Shown here: positions 13,897 through 20,453 of the stretch, piece by piece | How positions within the stretch are numbered: position 1 is the stretch's first letter | How the letters are laid out: each line of letters begins with the position of its first letter | NCBI RefSeq assembly: GCF_014202825.1 | Contig: NZ_JACHHP010000001.1 | Span: forward strand, 992,001-1,056,000 | Source of the DNA: Chiayiivirga flava | GTDB lineage: Bacteria; Pseudomonadota; Gammaproteobacteria; Xanthomonadales; Xanthomonadaceae | DNA length: 64,000 nt | Reading direction: 5' to 3' | Program-made: the position numbers and the translations under genes | The notes under the pieces: model-generated | Databases searched by the model: none | What the model saw: the letters and a program-made list of their open reading frames with translations, nothing else | Told to the model about the DNA's origin: nothing

Positions 13897-14063
13897 AATT
13901 CTGCGCCGTGTGCTCGATGTCGCTGCGCGAGAGCGTCGCGGTGCCGCGCGCAGCGTCCGCGCGCACGATCGCGTCACGCGCCGGCCTGCCGGGTCAGTGC
14001 GCACACCGCATCCGGGCAGACGAGTCGTTATGCTTGCGGCCTGATCCGCAACGCACCGGCGGC

Positions 14064-14786
14064 ATGACCACGCTCTTCATCTCCGATCTGCACCTGGACG
14101 CCGACCGTCCGGACATCACGGCGCTGTTCGTGGACTTCCTGGCACACGAAGCGGCGCACGTGGACGCGCTGTTCGTGCTGGGCGACCTGTTCGAAGTGTG
14201 GATCGGCGACGACGACGATGCGCCACTGGCGCGCGAGGTCGCACGCAGTCTGCGAACGGTCGCAGCGCACGGCGTGCCGGTGTCGTTCATCCGCGGCAAC
14301 CGGGATTTTCTGCTGGGACGCGACTATGCCGAACAGGCGGGATTCGCGCTGCTGCCCGATCCGTGCGTCGTGTCGCTGTACGGCGAGGCCGTGCTGCTGC
14401 TGCACGGCGACCTGCTGTGCACCGACGACACCGATTATCTGGCCGTCCGCCGCCAAGTGCGCGACCCCGCGTGGCAACACGCGCTGCTTGCGCGGTCGCT
14501 CGCCGAGCGCCGCGCCTTCGCGCTGCAGGCCCGGAGCACGAGCGCGTCCCGGCAGGCATCGATGGCGCTCGAGACCGGCGACGCGACGCAGACCGCCGTC
14601 GACGACGCGTTCCGCCGCTTCGGCGCACGGCGCATGGTGCACGGCCACACGCATCGACCGGCCGTCCACGACACGACCCTCGACGGCATGCCTCGCCAAC
14701 GCATCGTGCTCGGCGACTGGTACGAACAGGGCAGCGTGCTGCGCTGGGAGCGGTCCGGCGAGGTGGCGTTGTCGCGTCTGGGCTGA
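14064..14786 (+). CDS. lpxH: UDP-2,3-diacylglucosamine diphosphatase
   Basis: A 240-residue calcineurin-fold enzyme of lipid A synthesis: it hydrolyses UDP-2,3-diacylglucosamine to lipid X and UMP at the inner face of the cytoplasmic membrane. Metal-binding motifs are complete: FISDLHLD (Asp8, His10), VLGDLFEVWIGDD (Asp41), RGNRDF (Asn79), LHGD (His114) and HGHTHRP near residue 195. Length matches the family. It is not next to ppiB as in Escherichia coli. Presence of LpxH confirms a lipopolysaccharide-bearing envelope. Confidence 0.95.
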   Translation: MTTLFISDLHLDADRPDITALFVDFLAHEAAHVDALFVLGDLFEVWIGDDDDAPLAREVARSLRTVAAHGVPVSFIRGNRDFLLGRDYAEQAGFALLPDPCVVSLYGEAVLLLHGDLLCTDDTDYLAVRRQVRDPAWQHALLARSLAERRAFALQARSTSASRQASMALETGDATQTAVDDAFRRFGARRMVHGHTHRPAVHDTTLDGMPRQRIVLGDWYEQGSVLRWERSGEVALSRLG

Positions 14787-15252: not shown

Positions 15253-15283
15253 CAAAAAGAAAGGGGCGCCGAAGCGCCCCTTT
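15253..15283 (-). terminator. terminator of the cohesin/dockerin-like operon
   Basis: A ten-pair stem (AAAGGGGCGC, loop of four, GCGCCCCTTT) followed on the minus strand by CTTTTTG: a textbook intrinsic terminator 24 bases beyond the stop of the surface-anchored protein gene. Confidence 0.85.
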
Positions 15284-15306
15284 CAATACATCATGTCACG
15301 CGAAGC

Positions 15307-16569
15307 TTACTTGCGGCGGATGCCCACCACCAGCAGACCCAGCGCGGCCAGCAGGCCGATCAGGGACAGCTGCGACCACATCGAGCTGGCCGGCACCACG
15401 TTCGGCTGCGCGATCGGCGGCGGCGCCGTGGCAGCTACCGACGACAGCGGATAGTCGACTGCGGAGAACGCGGGATCGTTGGTCGTGCAGTCGAGCGAGC
15501 CGACCGCGGCCGGCGCGTCTTCCGCCGGAACCGTGCACTCGACGTTAACAGCCTGGCTCGCACCACCGGCGAGGTTACCCACGCCACCCGACGCCAGCGA
15601 GAATGCCGGATCACCGGAGACCGAGCAGTTGAACGTCAGGGCCAGATCGCCAGCGTTCGTGATCGTGACCGACGTGTTCTGCACCGAACCCGGGGCACCG
15701 TTGCAGGTCAACGCCGAACCCGGAGCCGGGGTCGAGGTGAACTCGGGGGCCGGAACCGGCGTGCCGGCCGGAGCCGACAGGTTGAACACCTTCTGCGTCG
15801 CAGCACTCGCGTCATCCAGATCGCAGGTCAGCGTGGCGCTGAGCGCCGAGTTGGCAAGCGTCACCTGGAGGTCGATCGTGTCTGCCGGCGGAACGACAGC
15901 CGTGCCGTTGAGGATCTGGAACGCACCCGGATTGGCGCCGCCCAGCACGCAGTTGTCGATCGTGCCGGTACCGACCGTGCCCGAACCGACGGTCACGTCG
16001 ATGTCGGCAACGGTATTGGTACCCGACGTACCGCCCGGGAACACGACGTTCGGATCCGGATTGAAGGCCAGGATGATATCCGGCGGCGCGTCGGAAACGG
16101 TGATCTCACCATCATTTTCTGTATGCGGGCCCGGACTCGGGTTAGCGTCTGCGTCGGAATAAAGCGCGTTGTTCAAGTCGAGCGTGAACACGTCGCCATC
16201 GGCAACACCGGCATCGAGCGTGAACGTCAGGTTGCAAGTGACCTTGTCGCCCAACACCGAGCTGTCCGGCGTGCCGTCGATGATCGTGATAGTTCCCGCG
16301 CCATCGTTCACGCCGCAGATACCACCGTCAACATTCTGAGAAACGACATCGAGATTCGCGGTGTCGTAGCTGAGCGTGGCCTGGTAACCCACAGTGACGC
16401 CATCGCCCACATAGGTCACGGCAATCTGGGCCGGTGTGGTACCACCGCCGCCGACGAGGCCAGCACCATCGCCGACCGAGATGGTCGCCGCCGACACCGA
16501 ACCAATCGCGGCAAAGCCGATAGCCAACGCGAGGCTAGTCTTGCCGAACAGCCTGTTTACATTCTTCAT
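15307..16569 (-). CDS. surface protein: cohesin-like module, Ig-like repeats, IPTL-type C-terminal anchor
   Basis: A 420-residue exported protein. A signal peptide (1-28, ending SVSA) is followed by a cohesin/cellulose-binding-like beta-sandwich (about 29-160): QATLSYDTANLDVVS, then VTCNLTFTLDAGVADGDVFTL and the repeat-closing ENDGEITVSD. Two or three Ig-like units of the choice-of-anchor type follow (about 165-380; ANPGAFQILNG, NAGDLALTFNCSV). The tail, PNVVPASSMWSQLSLIGLLA then a hydrophobic helix and RRK, resembles the IPTL-CTERM signal processed by exosortase H, but the motif is degenerate (VPASSMWS for IPTLSEWG). Last gene of a three-gene operon and followed by a strong terminator. Confidence 0.75.
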   Translation of the reverse strand: MKNVNRLFGKTSLALAIGFAAIGSVSAATISVGDGAGLVGGGGTTPAQIAVTYVGDGVTVGYQATLSYDTANLDVVSQNVDGGICGVNDGAGTITIIDGTPDSSVLGDKVTCNLTFTLDAGVADGDVFTLDLNNALYSDADANPSPGPHTENDGEITVSDAPPDIILAFNPDPNVVFPGGTSGTNTVADIDVTVGSGTVGTGTIDNCVLGGANPGAFQILNGTAVVPPADTIDLQVTLANSALSATLTCDLDDASAATQKVFNLSAPAGTPVPAPEFTSTPAPGSALTCNGAPGSVQNTSVTITNAGDLALTFNCSVSGDPAFSLASGGVGNLAGGASQAVNVECTVPAEDAPAAVGSLDCTTNDPAFSAVDYPLSSVAATAPPPIAQPNVVPASSMWSQLSLIGLLAALGLLVVGIRRK

Positions 16570-16594
16570 CTGACGTCACTCCGTAAACAAAAAG

Positions 16595-17077
16595 TTATTT
16601 AACTCGTTCCTGACCAGGCTTCGCCAGGTCGCTTCCGTTCCCAACGACCTTCGTGGTCGCACGGATCGGGTTTGCATTGGCGTCGGACACCAGGAACTGC
16701 GAGATCTCAAGACCTTTCTGCACATTCCCATCGAACGAAATACGACCGACCGAGACCAGACCGGCCGGCAGTTTTTCATTGGAATCGCTGAAAACGAGAC
16801 CGACGATTTCATTCTTGTTGACGCGGCACTGACCAGAATGCGACTTCGGCAATTCGGCAACGCAAGACTTCACATTAACCTGTTCCGGGGAAATTCCTTC
16901 CGGAAGGCGGATATTGAACTGGAAGCCGACGGCTTCACCGTTGGTCGAAAAGTCGAGCGCGTGCGACGAGCGACCCTTCGCGCTGCCCGAGGTAACAAGC
17001 AGTTCGTCCGAGAACGCACTCGTCGAAACCATGGCGAGGACCGCGCCTGCACCGATAGCAAGAATAAGCTTAGACAT
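16595..17077 (-). CDS. secreted single cohesin-like module protein
   Basis: A 160-residue exported protein: signal peptide 1-23 (ending SAFS), then a single beta-sandwich that I read as a cohesin-like fold: ALDFSTNGEAVGFQFNIRLP, VKSCVAELPKSHSGQCRVN, NEIVGLVFSDSNEKLPAG and LVSVGRISF. The two Cys (about 74 and 85) could form a disulfide. The assignment is by pattern (the cohesin-like 'GFQFNIRLPEG ... VGLVFSDS ... LPAGLVSVGRISF' rhythm) and not certain. It has no membrane anchor. It sits 25 bases upstream of the anchored protein gene and 23 bases downstream of the dockerin-like gene. Its DNA is visibly less GC-rich than its surroundings. Confidence 0.68.
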   Translation of the reverse strand: MSKLILAIGAGAVLAMVSTSAFSDELLVTSGSAKGRSSHALDFSTNGEAVGFQFNIRLPEGISPEQVNVKSCVAELPKSHSGQCRVNKNEIVGLVFSDSNEKLPAGLVSVGRISFDGNVQKGLEISQFLVSDANANPIRATTKVVGNGSDLAKPGQERVK

Positions 17078-17100
17078 GACTTTCTCCAGTGCTCAGTCGA

Positions 17101-17928
17101 TTACGGGCAAGCGCCGCCGTCGAGAATCAGGTTGGTGACACAGGTACGATCGAACACGTTGATCGCGCCGTCTTCGGTGCAGTCAGGCTGACCTGCAGCG
17201 AGCGTGCCGTTGACAATCTCGTTTGTCACCGCGGTGCGGTCAAACACGTTGATCGGCTCGGTGCCATTCACATCACCACGGCACAGACGACCAATCGGGG
17301 TATCCGCCGAGCGCGTCGACTCGAACGCATCGACGCGAACGGTGCCGGCGCCGCCAGCGATCACGCCGAGCGAGTGCGATTCGATCGTGCCTGCACCTGC
17401 GGCGCCCGCCGGGATGCTGCCCGTGAACGTCTGGTTGCCGGCGACTTCGGCCGAGAACGAGGTGCCGGCTTCGTACGCGAGCTCGATGGAGTACCACTTG
17501 TTGGCAACGATGCCGGCGACTTCGCCCGCGGCCGCGCCATTCTGTTCGAACACGAACTCGCCCGCCGCCGCGTCGTAATCGACGCCGAGGACGACCGCGC
17601 CGCCGTTATCGTCGGCATCGGTGGCCTGGAAGACGGTCGTGGTGCCGGTCGTGCCGGTGTGCACGTAGAAACGTGCGCGATAGACGCTTTCGCCGTCCGG
17701 CGCGTTGTTGGTGACGAAGTTGGCTGCGCCACCGGCGCCGGCCAGACCGCATTCGCCGCTGTAACGCGCAACGCCATCGCCCGGATCGCCGGCCGTCGGG
17801 GCACCGGTGACCGAGCCACCGCCGTTCTCGACGCTTTCCCAGTTCGCGGTGGTGCAGGCGAACGCGCTGCTCATCGGGATGGCTGCGAGGAGTGCCGCAG
17901 CCAGGAGCTTCCTGGAAGTAACTTTCAT
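17101..17928 (-). CDS. secreted protein with C-terminal dockerin-like domain
   Basis: A 275-residue exported protein. A signal peptide (1-24, ending SSAFA) precedes a beta-rich domain of about 190 residues (TTANWESVENGGG, YRARFYVHTGTTGTTTVFQA, WYSIELAYEAG), like a lectin/laminin-G fold but unassigned. The last 60 residues hold two dockerin-type calcium loops: GDVNGTEPINVFDRTAVTN and PDCTEDGAINVFDRTCVTN. Each follows the D-x-N/T-x-x-x-x-I-N-x-x-D spacing, although the first loop lacks Asp at position five. Four Cys lie in this tail. It is the first gene of the operon, with GAGAGGA before the ATG and a plausible promoter upstream. Confidence 0.78.
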   Translation of the reverse strand: MKVTSRKLLAAALLAAIPMSSAFACTTANWESVENGGGSVTGAPTAGDPGDGVARYSGECGLAGAGGAANFVTNNAPDGESVYRARFYVHTGTTGTTTVFQATDADDNGGAVVLGVDYDAAAGEFVFEQNGAAAGEVAGIVANKWYSIELAYEAGTSFSAEVAGNQTFTGSIPAGAAGAGTIESHSLGVIAGGAGTVRVDAFESTRSADTPIGRLCRGDVNGTEPINVFDRTAVTNEIVNGTLAAGQPDCTEDGAINVFDRTCVTNLILDGGACP

Positions 17929-17998
17929 GATCGTCCTCTCTACTTGCGAGTGTTGATGCCGATTGGGTCCTAGCCAGCAAGCCCCTGCGAACGGGCAG

Positions 17999-18026
17999 AC
18001 AGTAGCACAGTCTGAACGCTTCGCAA
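17999..18026 (-). promoter_or_regulatory. candidate sigma-70 promoter of the dockerin/cohesin-like operon
   Basis: On the minus strand TTGCGA (18026-18021) and TACTGT (18004-17999) are 16 bases apart and would start transcription about 65 bases before the dockerin-like gene. Confidence 0.35.
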
Positions 18027-18087
18027 ACAGCCCCCGGAGAGGCCCGGAATTGCCGGAACTTTCGGGTCGACGCAGCTCGGCCCTGTC

Positions 18088-18093
18088 TACAAT
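18088..18093 (+). promoter_or_regulatory. candidate -10 box for the GT2 gene
   Basis: TACAAT lies about 40 bases before the glycosyltransferase start; no convincing -35 element is seen. Confidence 0.25.
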
Positions 18094-18133
18094 ACGCAGC
18101 CCTCACGAAAAAAAGGTCACGCGCCGCGTGCCG

Positions 18134-18856
18134 ATGTCCGAGGCCCGGTTCCGGGCGCTGGTGGTGATCCCAGCCTACAACGAAGCGCGTGCCATCGCCG
18201 ACATCGTGCAGCGCTGCGAACCGGGGCGCGACGGGCGGGCGGTGCTGGTGGTTTCCGACGCCAGCACGGACGACACCGCGGTGCTGGCGCGCGAGGCCGG
18301 CGCCTGCGTGCTGGAGCTGTCGCAGCAGATCGGCGCCTGGGGCGCCACGCAGACCGGCTTCCGCTATGCGATGCGGCACGGATTCGGGCAGGTGATCAGC
18401 ATGGATGGCGATGGCCAGCACGATCCGGCCTGCATCCCGACGCTGCAGACGCTGCACGCGGACAGCGGCGCGGACGTGGTGATCGGCACGTTTGCCGAGC
18501 GCCTGAGCCCGGCCAAGCGCCTGGCCTGGCGCTGGTTCCGGGCGCTGACCGGGCTGAAGGTGGAGGATCTGACCTCCGGCCTGCGCGTGTACAACCGCCG
18601 CGCGATCCGCCTTTTGGCCTCGGCCGAGGCGACGATGCTCGACTACCAGGATGTCGGCGTGCTGCTGCTTCTGCGAAGATACGGCCTCTCCGTGCATGAG
18701 GTTCCGGTCACGATGCATCCGCGCCGCGACGGCAAATCCCGCGTGTTTTCGTCGTGGCTGACGGTGGCGCGCTACATGGCCCACACCACGGTGCTGTCGC
18801 TGGCGCGCGGCGGCGCCACACCGCGCCGGCGCGGCGCGCAGGACACGCACGCATGA
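18134..18856 (+). CDS. family 2 glycosyltransferase
   Basis: A 240-residue GT2 enzyme of the dolichol-phosphate-mannose-synthase-like type, with no membrane segments of its own. It carries VVIPAYNEA at the N-terminus, VVSDASTDDT and the donor/metal motif SMDGDGQHDP, followed by EDLTSGLRVYNRRA. It is predicted to load a sugar from a nucleotide donor onto a polyprenyl phosphate at the cytoplasmic membrane face. The stop overlaps the ATG of the DUF2304 gene (ATGA), a pairing often seen for such transferases. A GTG at 18128, better spaced from AGGT, is an alternative start two codons upstream. Confidence 0.88.
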   Translation: MSEARFRALVVIPAYNEARAIADIVQRCEPGRDGRAVLVVSDASTDDTAVLAREAGACVLELSQQIGAWGATQTGFRYAMRHGFGQVISMDGDGQHDPACIPTLQTLHADSGADVVIGTFAERLSPAKRLAWRWFRALTGLKVEDLTSGLRVYNRRAIRLLASAEATMLDYQDVGVLLLLRRYGLSVHEVPVTMHPRRDGKSRVFSSWLTVARYMAHTTVLSLARGGATPRRRGAQDTHA

Positions 18857-19290
18857 CGGCCGGCTTTACCTCCGCGGTGCTGGGCGTGGCGATCGCGGTC
18901 GGCATCCTGTGGCTGGTGCGGCGCGACCGCATGCACGGCGGCTACGCGCTGTGGTGGCTGGCCGTGGCGATCGGCGCGCTGTTGATCGGCTTTTTCCCGG
19001 GCGTGATCGATTGGGTGGGTGCGAAGCTCGGCGTGCACTATCCGCCGATGCTGCTGGTGCTGGGCGCGCTCGCGGCCATCGTGCTCAAGCTCGCCGCGGC
19101 CGACATCGACGCGACGCTGCGCGAGCGTCGCCTGCGGCGACTGTTGCAGAAGGTCGCCATCCTCGAACTCGAACTGAAGACGCTGCGGATGGAGCTCGAC
19201 GTGCGCGACGCGGCCGCGCAGGCGGCCCGCGACCCGGTGTCGCCGGCCGTCGACGCGTCCGCCGCTCCGATCCGCCGCGCCGCGGTCTGA
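18853..19290 (+). CDS. DUF2304 membrane protein
   Basis: A 145-residue inner-membrane protein with three hydrophobic helices (about 4-20, 33-52 and 67-86) and a charged, coiled-coil-like cytoplasmic tail (LRERRLRRLLQKVAILELEL). DUF2304 proteins nearly always neighbour a GT2 transferase and are thought to tether it or help move the lipid-linked sugar; no enzyme motif is known. It is translationally coupled to the GT2 gene before it and lies 14 bases from the GT4 gene after it. Confidence 0.85.
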   Translation: MTAGFTSAVLGVAIAVGILWLVRRDRMHGGYALWWLAVAIGALLIGFFPGVIDWVGAKLGVHYPPMLLVLGALAAIVLKLAAADIDATLRERRLRRLLQKVAILELELKTLRMELDVRDAAAQAARDPVSPAVDASAAPIRRAAV

Positions 19291-19304
19291 AGGCACCGGG
19301 CGCG

Positions 19305-20453
19305 TTGCGCATCCTGCATCTGGGCAAGTTCTATCCGCCGCATGCCGGCGGGATCGAGCGTTTCGTCGCCGAGCTCGCGGCGGCGCAGCGGTCCGCCGGC
19401 CACGCCGTGGCGGCGCTGGTGCATGCCAGTCCGGGCGTCGCCACGCCGACACGCCGCGTCGACGCCGACGGTGTCGAGGTGCATGCCGTGCCGTGCCACG
19501 GCCAGCTCCTGTTCGCACCGGTCAGCCCCGGATGGGCGGTACATTTTCGCCGATTGATGGATGAGTTCCGGCCGGACCTGTTGCACGTTCATGTCCCGAA
19601 CGTGTCGGCCTTCTGGCTGCTCGCCTCGCGCCGCGCACGGCGCGTGCCGTGGGTGCTGCACTGGCACGCCGACATCCCGGCAGACAGCGGGCAGATCGCG
19701 CTGCGGCTCGGCTATCCGCTGTACCGGCAGTTCGAGCGCCGGCTGGTCGAACGCGCGGACGTGGCGGTGGCGACATCGCACGCGTACGCGCAGGCGAGCG
19801 TGCCGCTGCGGTCGCACGCGCGACGCGTGGCCGTGGTGCCGCTGGGGATGGGCGACGCGCCCGCGCCCGGCATCGCGCCCGCGTGGCCGGGCGCAGGGCT
19901 GCGCCTGCTCGCGGTCGGACGGCTGAGCTACTACAAGGGCTTCGAGATCCTGCTGCGGGCACTGTCGGACGTACCGGACGCAAGCCTGCTGCTCGTCGGT
20001 GCCGGCGACGGGGCCGCTGGCCTGCAGGCAACGGTGCAGGCGCTCGGATTGCAGGCACGGGTGCGGCTCGCCGGTCACCTCGACGATGCGGCGCTCGAAG
20101 CCGCCTACCGTGCATGCGATGTGTTCTGCCTGCCGTCGCTCGATCGCGCCGAGGCCTTCGGCATGGTGCTGCTGGAGGCGATGCGGGCCGGCAAGCCGAT
20201 CGTTGCCTCCGATATCCCCGGATCGGGCGTCGGCACGGTGGCCGGGCCGGACAACGCGCTGCGCGTTGCGCCTGGCGATGCGGGGGCACTGGCCGACGCG
20301 ATCCGCACGCTGGCCGAGTCGGCCGCGTTGCGGGAGCGTCTGGGCACCAGCGGACGTCTGCGCTGGGAGCGCGAGTACCGCATCGGCGCGGTCAGTGCGG
20401 CGATGGACGCGGTGTATCGCTCGGTGTGTTCCGGTCACGCCACAGCAGGCTGA
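19305..20453 (+). CDS. family 4 glycosyltransferase
   Basis: A 382-residue GT-B enzyme. The start region reads ILHLGKFYPPHAGGIERFV, typical of GT4; the C-terminal half has LLAVGRLSYYKGFEILLRAL and the donor-site EX7E motif in DRAEAFGMVLLEAMRAGKP. It should transfer a sugar from a nucleotide donor to a growing glycan or lipid-linked chain. The start is TTG, chosen because the conserved N-terminal strand begins there and no ATG or GTG fits. It ends within the convergent membrane-protein gene: the two share 62 bases. Confidence 0.85.
   Translation: MRILHLGKFYPPHAGGIERFVAELAAAQRSAGHAVAALVHASPGVATPTRRVDADGVEVHAVPCHGQLLFAPVSPGWAVHFRRLMDEFRPDLLHVHVPNVSAFWLLASRRARRVPWVLHWHADIPADSGQIALRLGYPLYRQFERRLVERADVAVATSHAYAQASVPLRSHARRVAVVPLGMGDAPAPGIAPAWPGAGLRLLAVGRLSYYKGFEILLRALSDVPDASLLLVGAGDGAAGLQATVQALGLQARVRLAGHLDDAALEAAYRACDVFCLPSLDRAEAFGMVLLEAMRAGKPIVASDIPGSGVGTVAGPDNALRVAPGDAGALADAIRTLAESAALRERLGTSGRLRWEREYRIGAVSAAMDAVYRSVCSGHATAG

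Follow-up and report, generated by a model that had tools for sequence, protein, structure and literature searches.

A conserved three-gene operon of Lysobacterales that probably forms a minimal non-cellulosomal cohesin-dockerin display system

The locus and its three gene products

Three consecutive genes are found on the minus strand of a 64,000-nt stretch of the Chiayiivirga flava genome, referred to here as the window. Gene 1 (17101..17928) encodes 275 aa, with a signal peptide, a ConA/LamG-like jelly roll (about residues 26-210) and a C-terminal type I dockerin (about residues 216-270). Gene 2 (16595..17077, 160 aa) has a signal peptide followed by one free cohesin module, without an anchor, and gene 3 (15307..16569, 420 aa) consists of a signal peptide, an N-terminal cohesin, Ig-like repeats and a C-terminal IPTL-CTERM-like sorting tail. 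The open reading frames were confirmed, they are 23 and 25 bp apart, and all three proteins have signal-peptide-like N-termini as read from the sequence. A preliminary description of this DNA had placed a candidate promoter before the trio and a strong terminator after it. Only the terminator was recovered: an intrinsic terminator at 15259..15284 of the minus strand has an 11-bp stem, GAAAGGGGCGCTTCGGCGCCCCTTTC, then TTTTT, with the tail extending to about 15254. No sigma-70-type site passed the consensus scan, which leaves the promoter unconfirmed.

The trio is flanked on one side by a divergent gene for an lpxH-like phosphoesterase (14061-14786) and on the other by divergent genes for a glycosyltransferase family 2 protein, a DUF2304 protein and a glycosyltransferase family 4 protein (17963-20453); these flanking genes are syntenic in several relatives. 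The third-position G+C of the trio is 0.64-0.79, compared with mostly 0.82-0.92 in the neighbours, which suggests a different selection regime or origin.

The dockerin region of gene 1 lies at approximately 17119..17284 (minus strand). Both of the calcium loops that had been proposed for it, GDVNGTEPINVFD and DCTEDGAINVFD, are present, at D219..D230 and D249..D260, each with a helix after it (residues 228-240 and 258-269). Thus the layout of a type I dockerin is met, i.e., two tandem calcium loops with Asp at positions 1 and 12 and a helix following each, and residues D230, D249 and D260 are invariant in the family. A profile of the gene 1 family matches the solved dockerin of Clostridium thermocellum CelS with E=8e-7, over the C-terminal 55 residues only, and the Pfam model Dockerin_1 is matched by 20 of the 33 gene 1 relatives (best 8.4e-11). 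The window copy of gene 1 taken alone does not reach the Pfam cut-off for dockerins (17.8 vs 22.9 bits); the genome-level score is 27.8 bits with neighbours in frame. In the AlphaFold model (pLDDT 90) a beta jelly roll is followed by two loop-helix units at the positions of the calcium loops, and the assignment of a dockerin to the end of gene 1 is therefore upheld by both profile and model. When genes 1 and 3 were each compared with solved structures as single sequences, no useful match was obtained.

The jelly roll has the generic ConA/LamG-like fold, with LamG proteins of phages among its matches. No family match was found for this domain, and it matched no enzyme family. A likeness to the binding domains of clostridial neurotoxins, returned by Foldseek, was discarded as functionally meaningless, since it reflects only the generic fold (TM about 0.4, 10% identity). 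Within the gene 1 family, a Cys before loop 1 covaries with a C-terminal Cys (both in 19 sequences, neither in 12, 2 exceptions; P 2.6e-7), and a Cys in loop 2 covaries with one in helix 2 (both in 16, neither in 11, 6 exceptions; P 9e-5). This covariation suggests that the pairs form disulphides, one of which would be a clasp joining the ends of the dockerin.

The cohesin of gene 3 is readily recognised. It shows the sequence relationship expected of the nine-strand cohesin jelly roll: its family profile matches the solved ScaB cohesin 4ums (E=3.6e-9), in agreement with the cohesin-like module of the preliminary description, and the Pfam Cohesin model is matched by 11 of 37 gene 3 relatives (best 1.3e-14) and by the window copy at 8.6e-5. 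The N-terminal, cohesin-bearing part that was aligned between species corresponds to 16018..16515 (minus strand). For gene 2 the evidence is less direct. There is no Pfam match, and comparison of the gene 2 family profile with solved structures gave noise only, in which a few NagJ modules of cohesin-like type appeared with E about 0.3, and no direct match to a cohesin. That gene 2 is a free cohesin, as had been suggested, is instead supported by its AlphaFold model (pLDDT 86), whose best Foldseek matches are almost all cohesins, including each of the top 25, with E 5e-6 and TM about 0.5, and by its similarity to gene 3. A profile-profile comparison of the two families with hhalign gives a 97% probability, and a gene 3 profile built without gene 2 finds all 27 gene 2 sequences, the window copy with E 2.5e-9 (1000 sequences). 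A value of E=3e-24 for gene 2 against an iterated gene 3 profile was set aside because gene 2 had already been absorbed during the iteration.

Conservation of the trio and its association with exosortase H

A pairwise search of 149 related genomes detected gene 1 in 38, gene 2 in 23 and gene 3 in 15; the count for gene 1 excludes one genome, G119, that has short dockerin-like matches only. The named relatives are Lysobacterales, i.e., Lysobacteraceae, Wenzhouxiangellaceae and Chiayiivirga. According to a profile search of the neighbourhoods, most loci have the three genes in the order 1, 2, 3. In several genera the locus adjoins the same genes, namely the amidophosphoribosyltransferase region, the glycosyltransferase, DUF2304 and the lpxH-like phosphoesterase. 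The conservation of the gene set across the order indicates that the trio is more than a chance arrangement. Neither of the outcomes that would have refuted the preliminary description, folds other than those it named or absence of the trio from related genomes, was encountered.

Gene 2 is missing, with gene 1 directly before gene 3, in seven loci (L083, L099, L100, L102, L105, L106 and L107). When these are counted, almost every intact locus has gene 3 after gene 1; the exceptions are contig ends and L084, from a fragmentary assembly. Since several genomes have genes 1 and 3 only, these two form the core and the free cohesin gene is optional. Additional cohesin proteins resembling gene 3 are encoded in some relatives: L078:9121-10953 is a second copy with a tail, and the protein at L096:180-1556 has no sorting tail and ends in DALFDDGFEV. 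One dockerin, and no cohesin other than those of genes 2 and 3, was recognised in the window genome. In three other genomes (G118, G119 and G103) dockerin-like ends are found elsewhere, on very long open frames of 565 to over 3000 codons, possibly further cargo of the same cohesins.

The C-terminal tail of gene 3, NVVPASSMWSQLSLIGLLAALGLLVVGIRRK, is located at 15310..15400 (minus strand). An IPTL-like motif, a hydrophobic stretch and basic residues make up the tail in every copy of the gene 3 family in the set, with the exception of the extra protein in L096. The resemblance to IPTL-CTERM that was pointed out in the preliminary description holds for the family, as tails of orthologues match TIGR04174 and at least 10 of the orthologues score above the curated cut-off. 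It does not extend to a formal match in the window copy, whose tail, a VPASSMW variant that is hydrophobic with RR and has the IPTL-CTERM layout, scores below the TIGR04174 threshold. We regard it as an IPTL-CTERM variant whose presence goes with that of exosortase H (XrtH), the presumed sorter of such tails.

XrtH is encoded in the window genome at G000:C1:951376-951843 (E 2.3e-54), about 55 kb from the operon. With the model TIGR04177, XrtH is detected in 61 of the 149 related genomes; Pfam PF09721 undercounts it (44 vs 61 genomes). Thirty-six of the 38 genomes that have gene 1 also have XrtH, compared with 25 of the 111 others (Fisher 8e-16), and the two gene-1 genomes without it are represented by assemblies only 77% and 80% complete. 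The association also holds within the family to which the window belongs, where XrtH is rare: it is present in 7/7 genomes with gene 1 and in 2/82 others (5e-9). In the other families the figures are 29/31 with gene 1 and 23/29 without (P=0.11); taken alone this does not reach significance, in part because nearly all genomes there have XrtH. As XrtH nearly always accompanies gene 1 and yet is found in 25 genomes without it, the trio appears to depend on XrtH, and XrtH does not require the trio. This is the pattern expected of a substrate operon. In some relatives (L113 and L118) XrtH lies beside a shikimate-kinase-like gene whose protein starts with MNPASN..LIGPMGAGK.

Symmetry of the dockerin repeats and coevolution with the cohesin faces

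The recognition residues of type I dockerins are at positions 10, 11, 17 and 18 (and 22) of each repeat (PMC6780208, PMC4582956), and symmetry of the two repeats at these positions is the mark of a dual binding mode (PMC5429695). The gene 1 dockerins show the symmetric recognition residues expected of this mode. In the window copy both halves have V-F at positions 10-11 and a V-T region at 16-17. Within a protein, the two repeats agree in 85-94% of cases at positions 10, 11, 13, 14 and 17 and in 73% at position 18, whereas agreement between repeat 1 of one species and repeat 2 of another is only 9-29% at these six positions; none of 5000 permutations reached the observed values. After thinning to 19 diverse proteins, positions 10, 11, 17 and 18 combined show 88% agreement within and 17% between proteins, compared with 46% and 24% at the control positions 8, 9, 15 and 16. 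Gene conversion as the source of this symmetry was rejected, as the codons differ at 51% of the residues common to both repeats, against 55% expected from other occurrences of that amino acid in the gene. The codons are thus scrambled as in old repeats, and the likeness of the repeats is maintained by selection rather than by recent copying. The recognition residues themselves differ greatly from one species to another, with 31 different codes at positions 10, 11, 17 and 18 among 33 species.

Two cohesins that serve one and the same dockerin are expected to have similar binding faces within a genome. In known cohesins the platform for the dockerin is the sheet of strands 8-3-6-5 (PMC5429695). 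On these strands the identity between the gene 2 and gene 3 cohesins of the same genome is 0.216, as opposed to 0.165 in permuted pairings (z 4.8, 0/4000), and the strand set 8-3-6-5 ranks first among all 70 four-strand sets. The likeness within genomes is confined to this sheet, since the opposite sheet has z -0.6 and the loops 0.8. In addition, similarity of the dockerin code correlates with similarity of the face of gene 2 (partial Mantel 0.32, 0/2000) and of gene 3 (0.24, 0/2000), after correction in both cases for the remainder of the proteins. The corresponding values for the opposite sheets are 0.06 (436/2000) for gene 2 and 0.17 (15/2000) for gene 3, the latter being weaker than that of the face but not nil. 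It should be borne in mind that the face test was performed after the ranked column list had been inspected, that the code positions for the Mantel test were picked after the repeat-symmetry result, and that identity is low in the cohesin alignment, the strands of which were numbered by their order in one AlphaFold model.

The plug, i.e., the dockerin, and its two sockets have changed together across species, and very probably they fit each other, although no binding data support this beyond the sequences. This coevolution is the strongest evidence for the dockerin-cohesin pairing that the preliminary description had proposed; physical binding itself remains an inference.

A proposed display system and its alternatives

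The reading that we favour, and consider probable, is that the operon encodes a minimal non-cellulosomal cohesin-dockerin display system, in which a gene 3 cohesin sorted by XrtH holds the dual-mode dockerin of gene 1, with gene 2 as a free cohesin of the same specificity. It draws on the domain folds, the conservation of the operon and its synteny, the XrtH association, the repeat symmetry and the coevolution of both cohesins with the dockerin, all of which are supported by computation. Gene 3 would be exported and its IPTL-CTERM-like tail recognised and processed by XrtH, a cleavage that is inferred, and its cohesin would thereby be fixed to the envelope or the outer surface, likewise an inferred location. 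Gene 1, as a secreted lectin-like jelly-roll protein, would plug its dockerin into this cohesin, in a manner presumed to depend on calcium, and could dock in either of two orientations because both repeats carry the same recognition residues. The soluble cohesin of gene 2 may bind the same dockerin first or alternatively; its role can only be inferred and is most likely that of a periplasmic chaperone or carrier that prevents premature anchoring of the dockerin protein, of an adaptor or of a soluble competitor. The ligand of the jelly roll is likewise a matter of inference, but a lectin-like cargo makes adhesion or matrix building the most likely output.

A functional pairing that is not surface display should also be considered. 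The trio could work inside the periplasm; for instance, the tail could retain gene 3 in the inner membrane, and the dockerin protein could take part in the XrtH sorting or matrix-export route as a component that is periplasmic or in transit. In favour of this are the tail, which is a transmembrane-type helix with RR, the XrtH association, which would suit a role in sorting itself, and the synteny with glycosyltransferases, DUF2304 and lpxH. We nevertheless consider it unlikely: with XrtH present in about 25 genomes that have no gene 1, sorting does not need the trio, and the related C-terminal signals of PEP-CTERM/exosortase systems are generally interpreted as surface-sorting signals.

Two further readings concern the modules themselves. 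For many cohesins and dockerins outside cellulosomes no partner is known, and in the window genome the Pfam model scores fall under the cut-off, such that the domains might be relatives that no longer pair, the dockerin-like tail being a stand-alone calcium-stabilised module. This is very unlikely, as the matched repeats at the recognition positions, the concerted cohesin faces and the correlation between them require a shared interface. Assembly of a cellulosome-like enzyme complex on the surface is barely credible, even though the modules are identical in kind to those of cellulosomes: the single recognised dockerin of the genome belongs to a protein that matched no enzyme family, and neither a multi-cohesin scaffoldin nor tandem cohesins were found in the window genome. 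The earlier statement that the set is not a cellulosome is thus borne out.

The proposed display system resembles the cellulosomal anchoring scaffoldins of Clostridium/Acetivibrio that work with dual-mode type I dockerins, in that an envelope-fixed cohesin captures a symmetric dockerin, with the same recognition positions (10, 11, 17 and 18) and the same sheet, 8-3-6-5. It differs in having one dockerin per genome, a non-enzyme cargo and a Gram-negative host, as well as an exosortase-type tail in place of SLH or sortase anchoring, and a free cohesin in the operon. The anchoring scaffoldins of Ruminococcus use sortase anchoring. The amylosome and mucinolysome (PMC9112005, PMC12997984) are likewise cohesin-dockerin systems with non-cellulase cargo, but they are multi-enzyme complexes of Gram-positive gut anaerobes. 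The operon belongs with the non-cellulosomal modules of bacteria and archaea, e.g., those of ANME archaea, which are surface proteins with no link to cellulose and whose function is described as unknown (PMC5244752); the operon described here differs from them in that it is conserved, its pair is matched by coevolution and its sorting enzyme can be named. The tail type of the gene 3 orthologues and their co-occurrence with XrtH are those of the IPTL-CTERM/exosortase H system (TIGR04174 / TIGR04177). No link of this system to cohesin-dockerin pairs was found in the literature searched, where exosortase and dockerin appear together only in one paper on methane-oxidising archaea (PMC5244752), and are not connected there as a pair. 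No description of the trio operon was found either; most subscription papers were outside the search and priority is not excluded.

Because almost every species has its own code (31/33), the dockerin code may also be a species-private address label, restricting a lectin-like or matrix protein, once secreted, to the surface cohesin of the species that made it. This is doubtful and is offered only tentatively; if true, private codes would reserve a shared secreted product for kin within mixed biofilms or flocs. In any case, a single bacterial order here contributes a natural library of dockerin codes, more than 30 in number and apparently orthogonal, which could provide new orthogonal protein-pairing modules for biotechnology.

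Although cohesins and dockerins were recognised outside cellulosomes years ago, to our knowledge they have lacked both a purpose and a named partner. The operon described here is compact and conserved, and supplies both partners together with the likely sorting enzyme; it makes the purpose of such pairs directly testable in a genetically simple setting. The operon also suggests that exosortase-sorted proteins of Gram-negative bacteria may have a partner system of their own.
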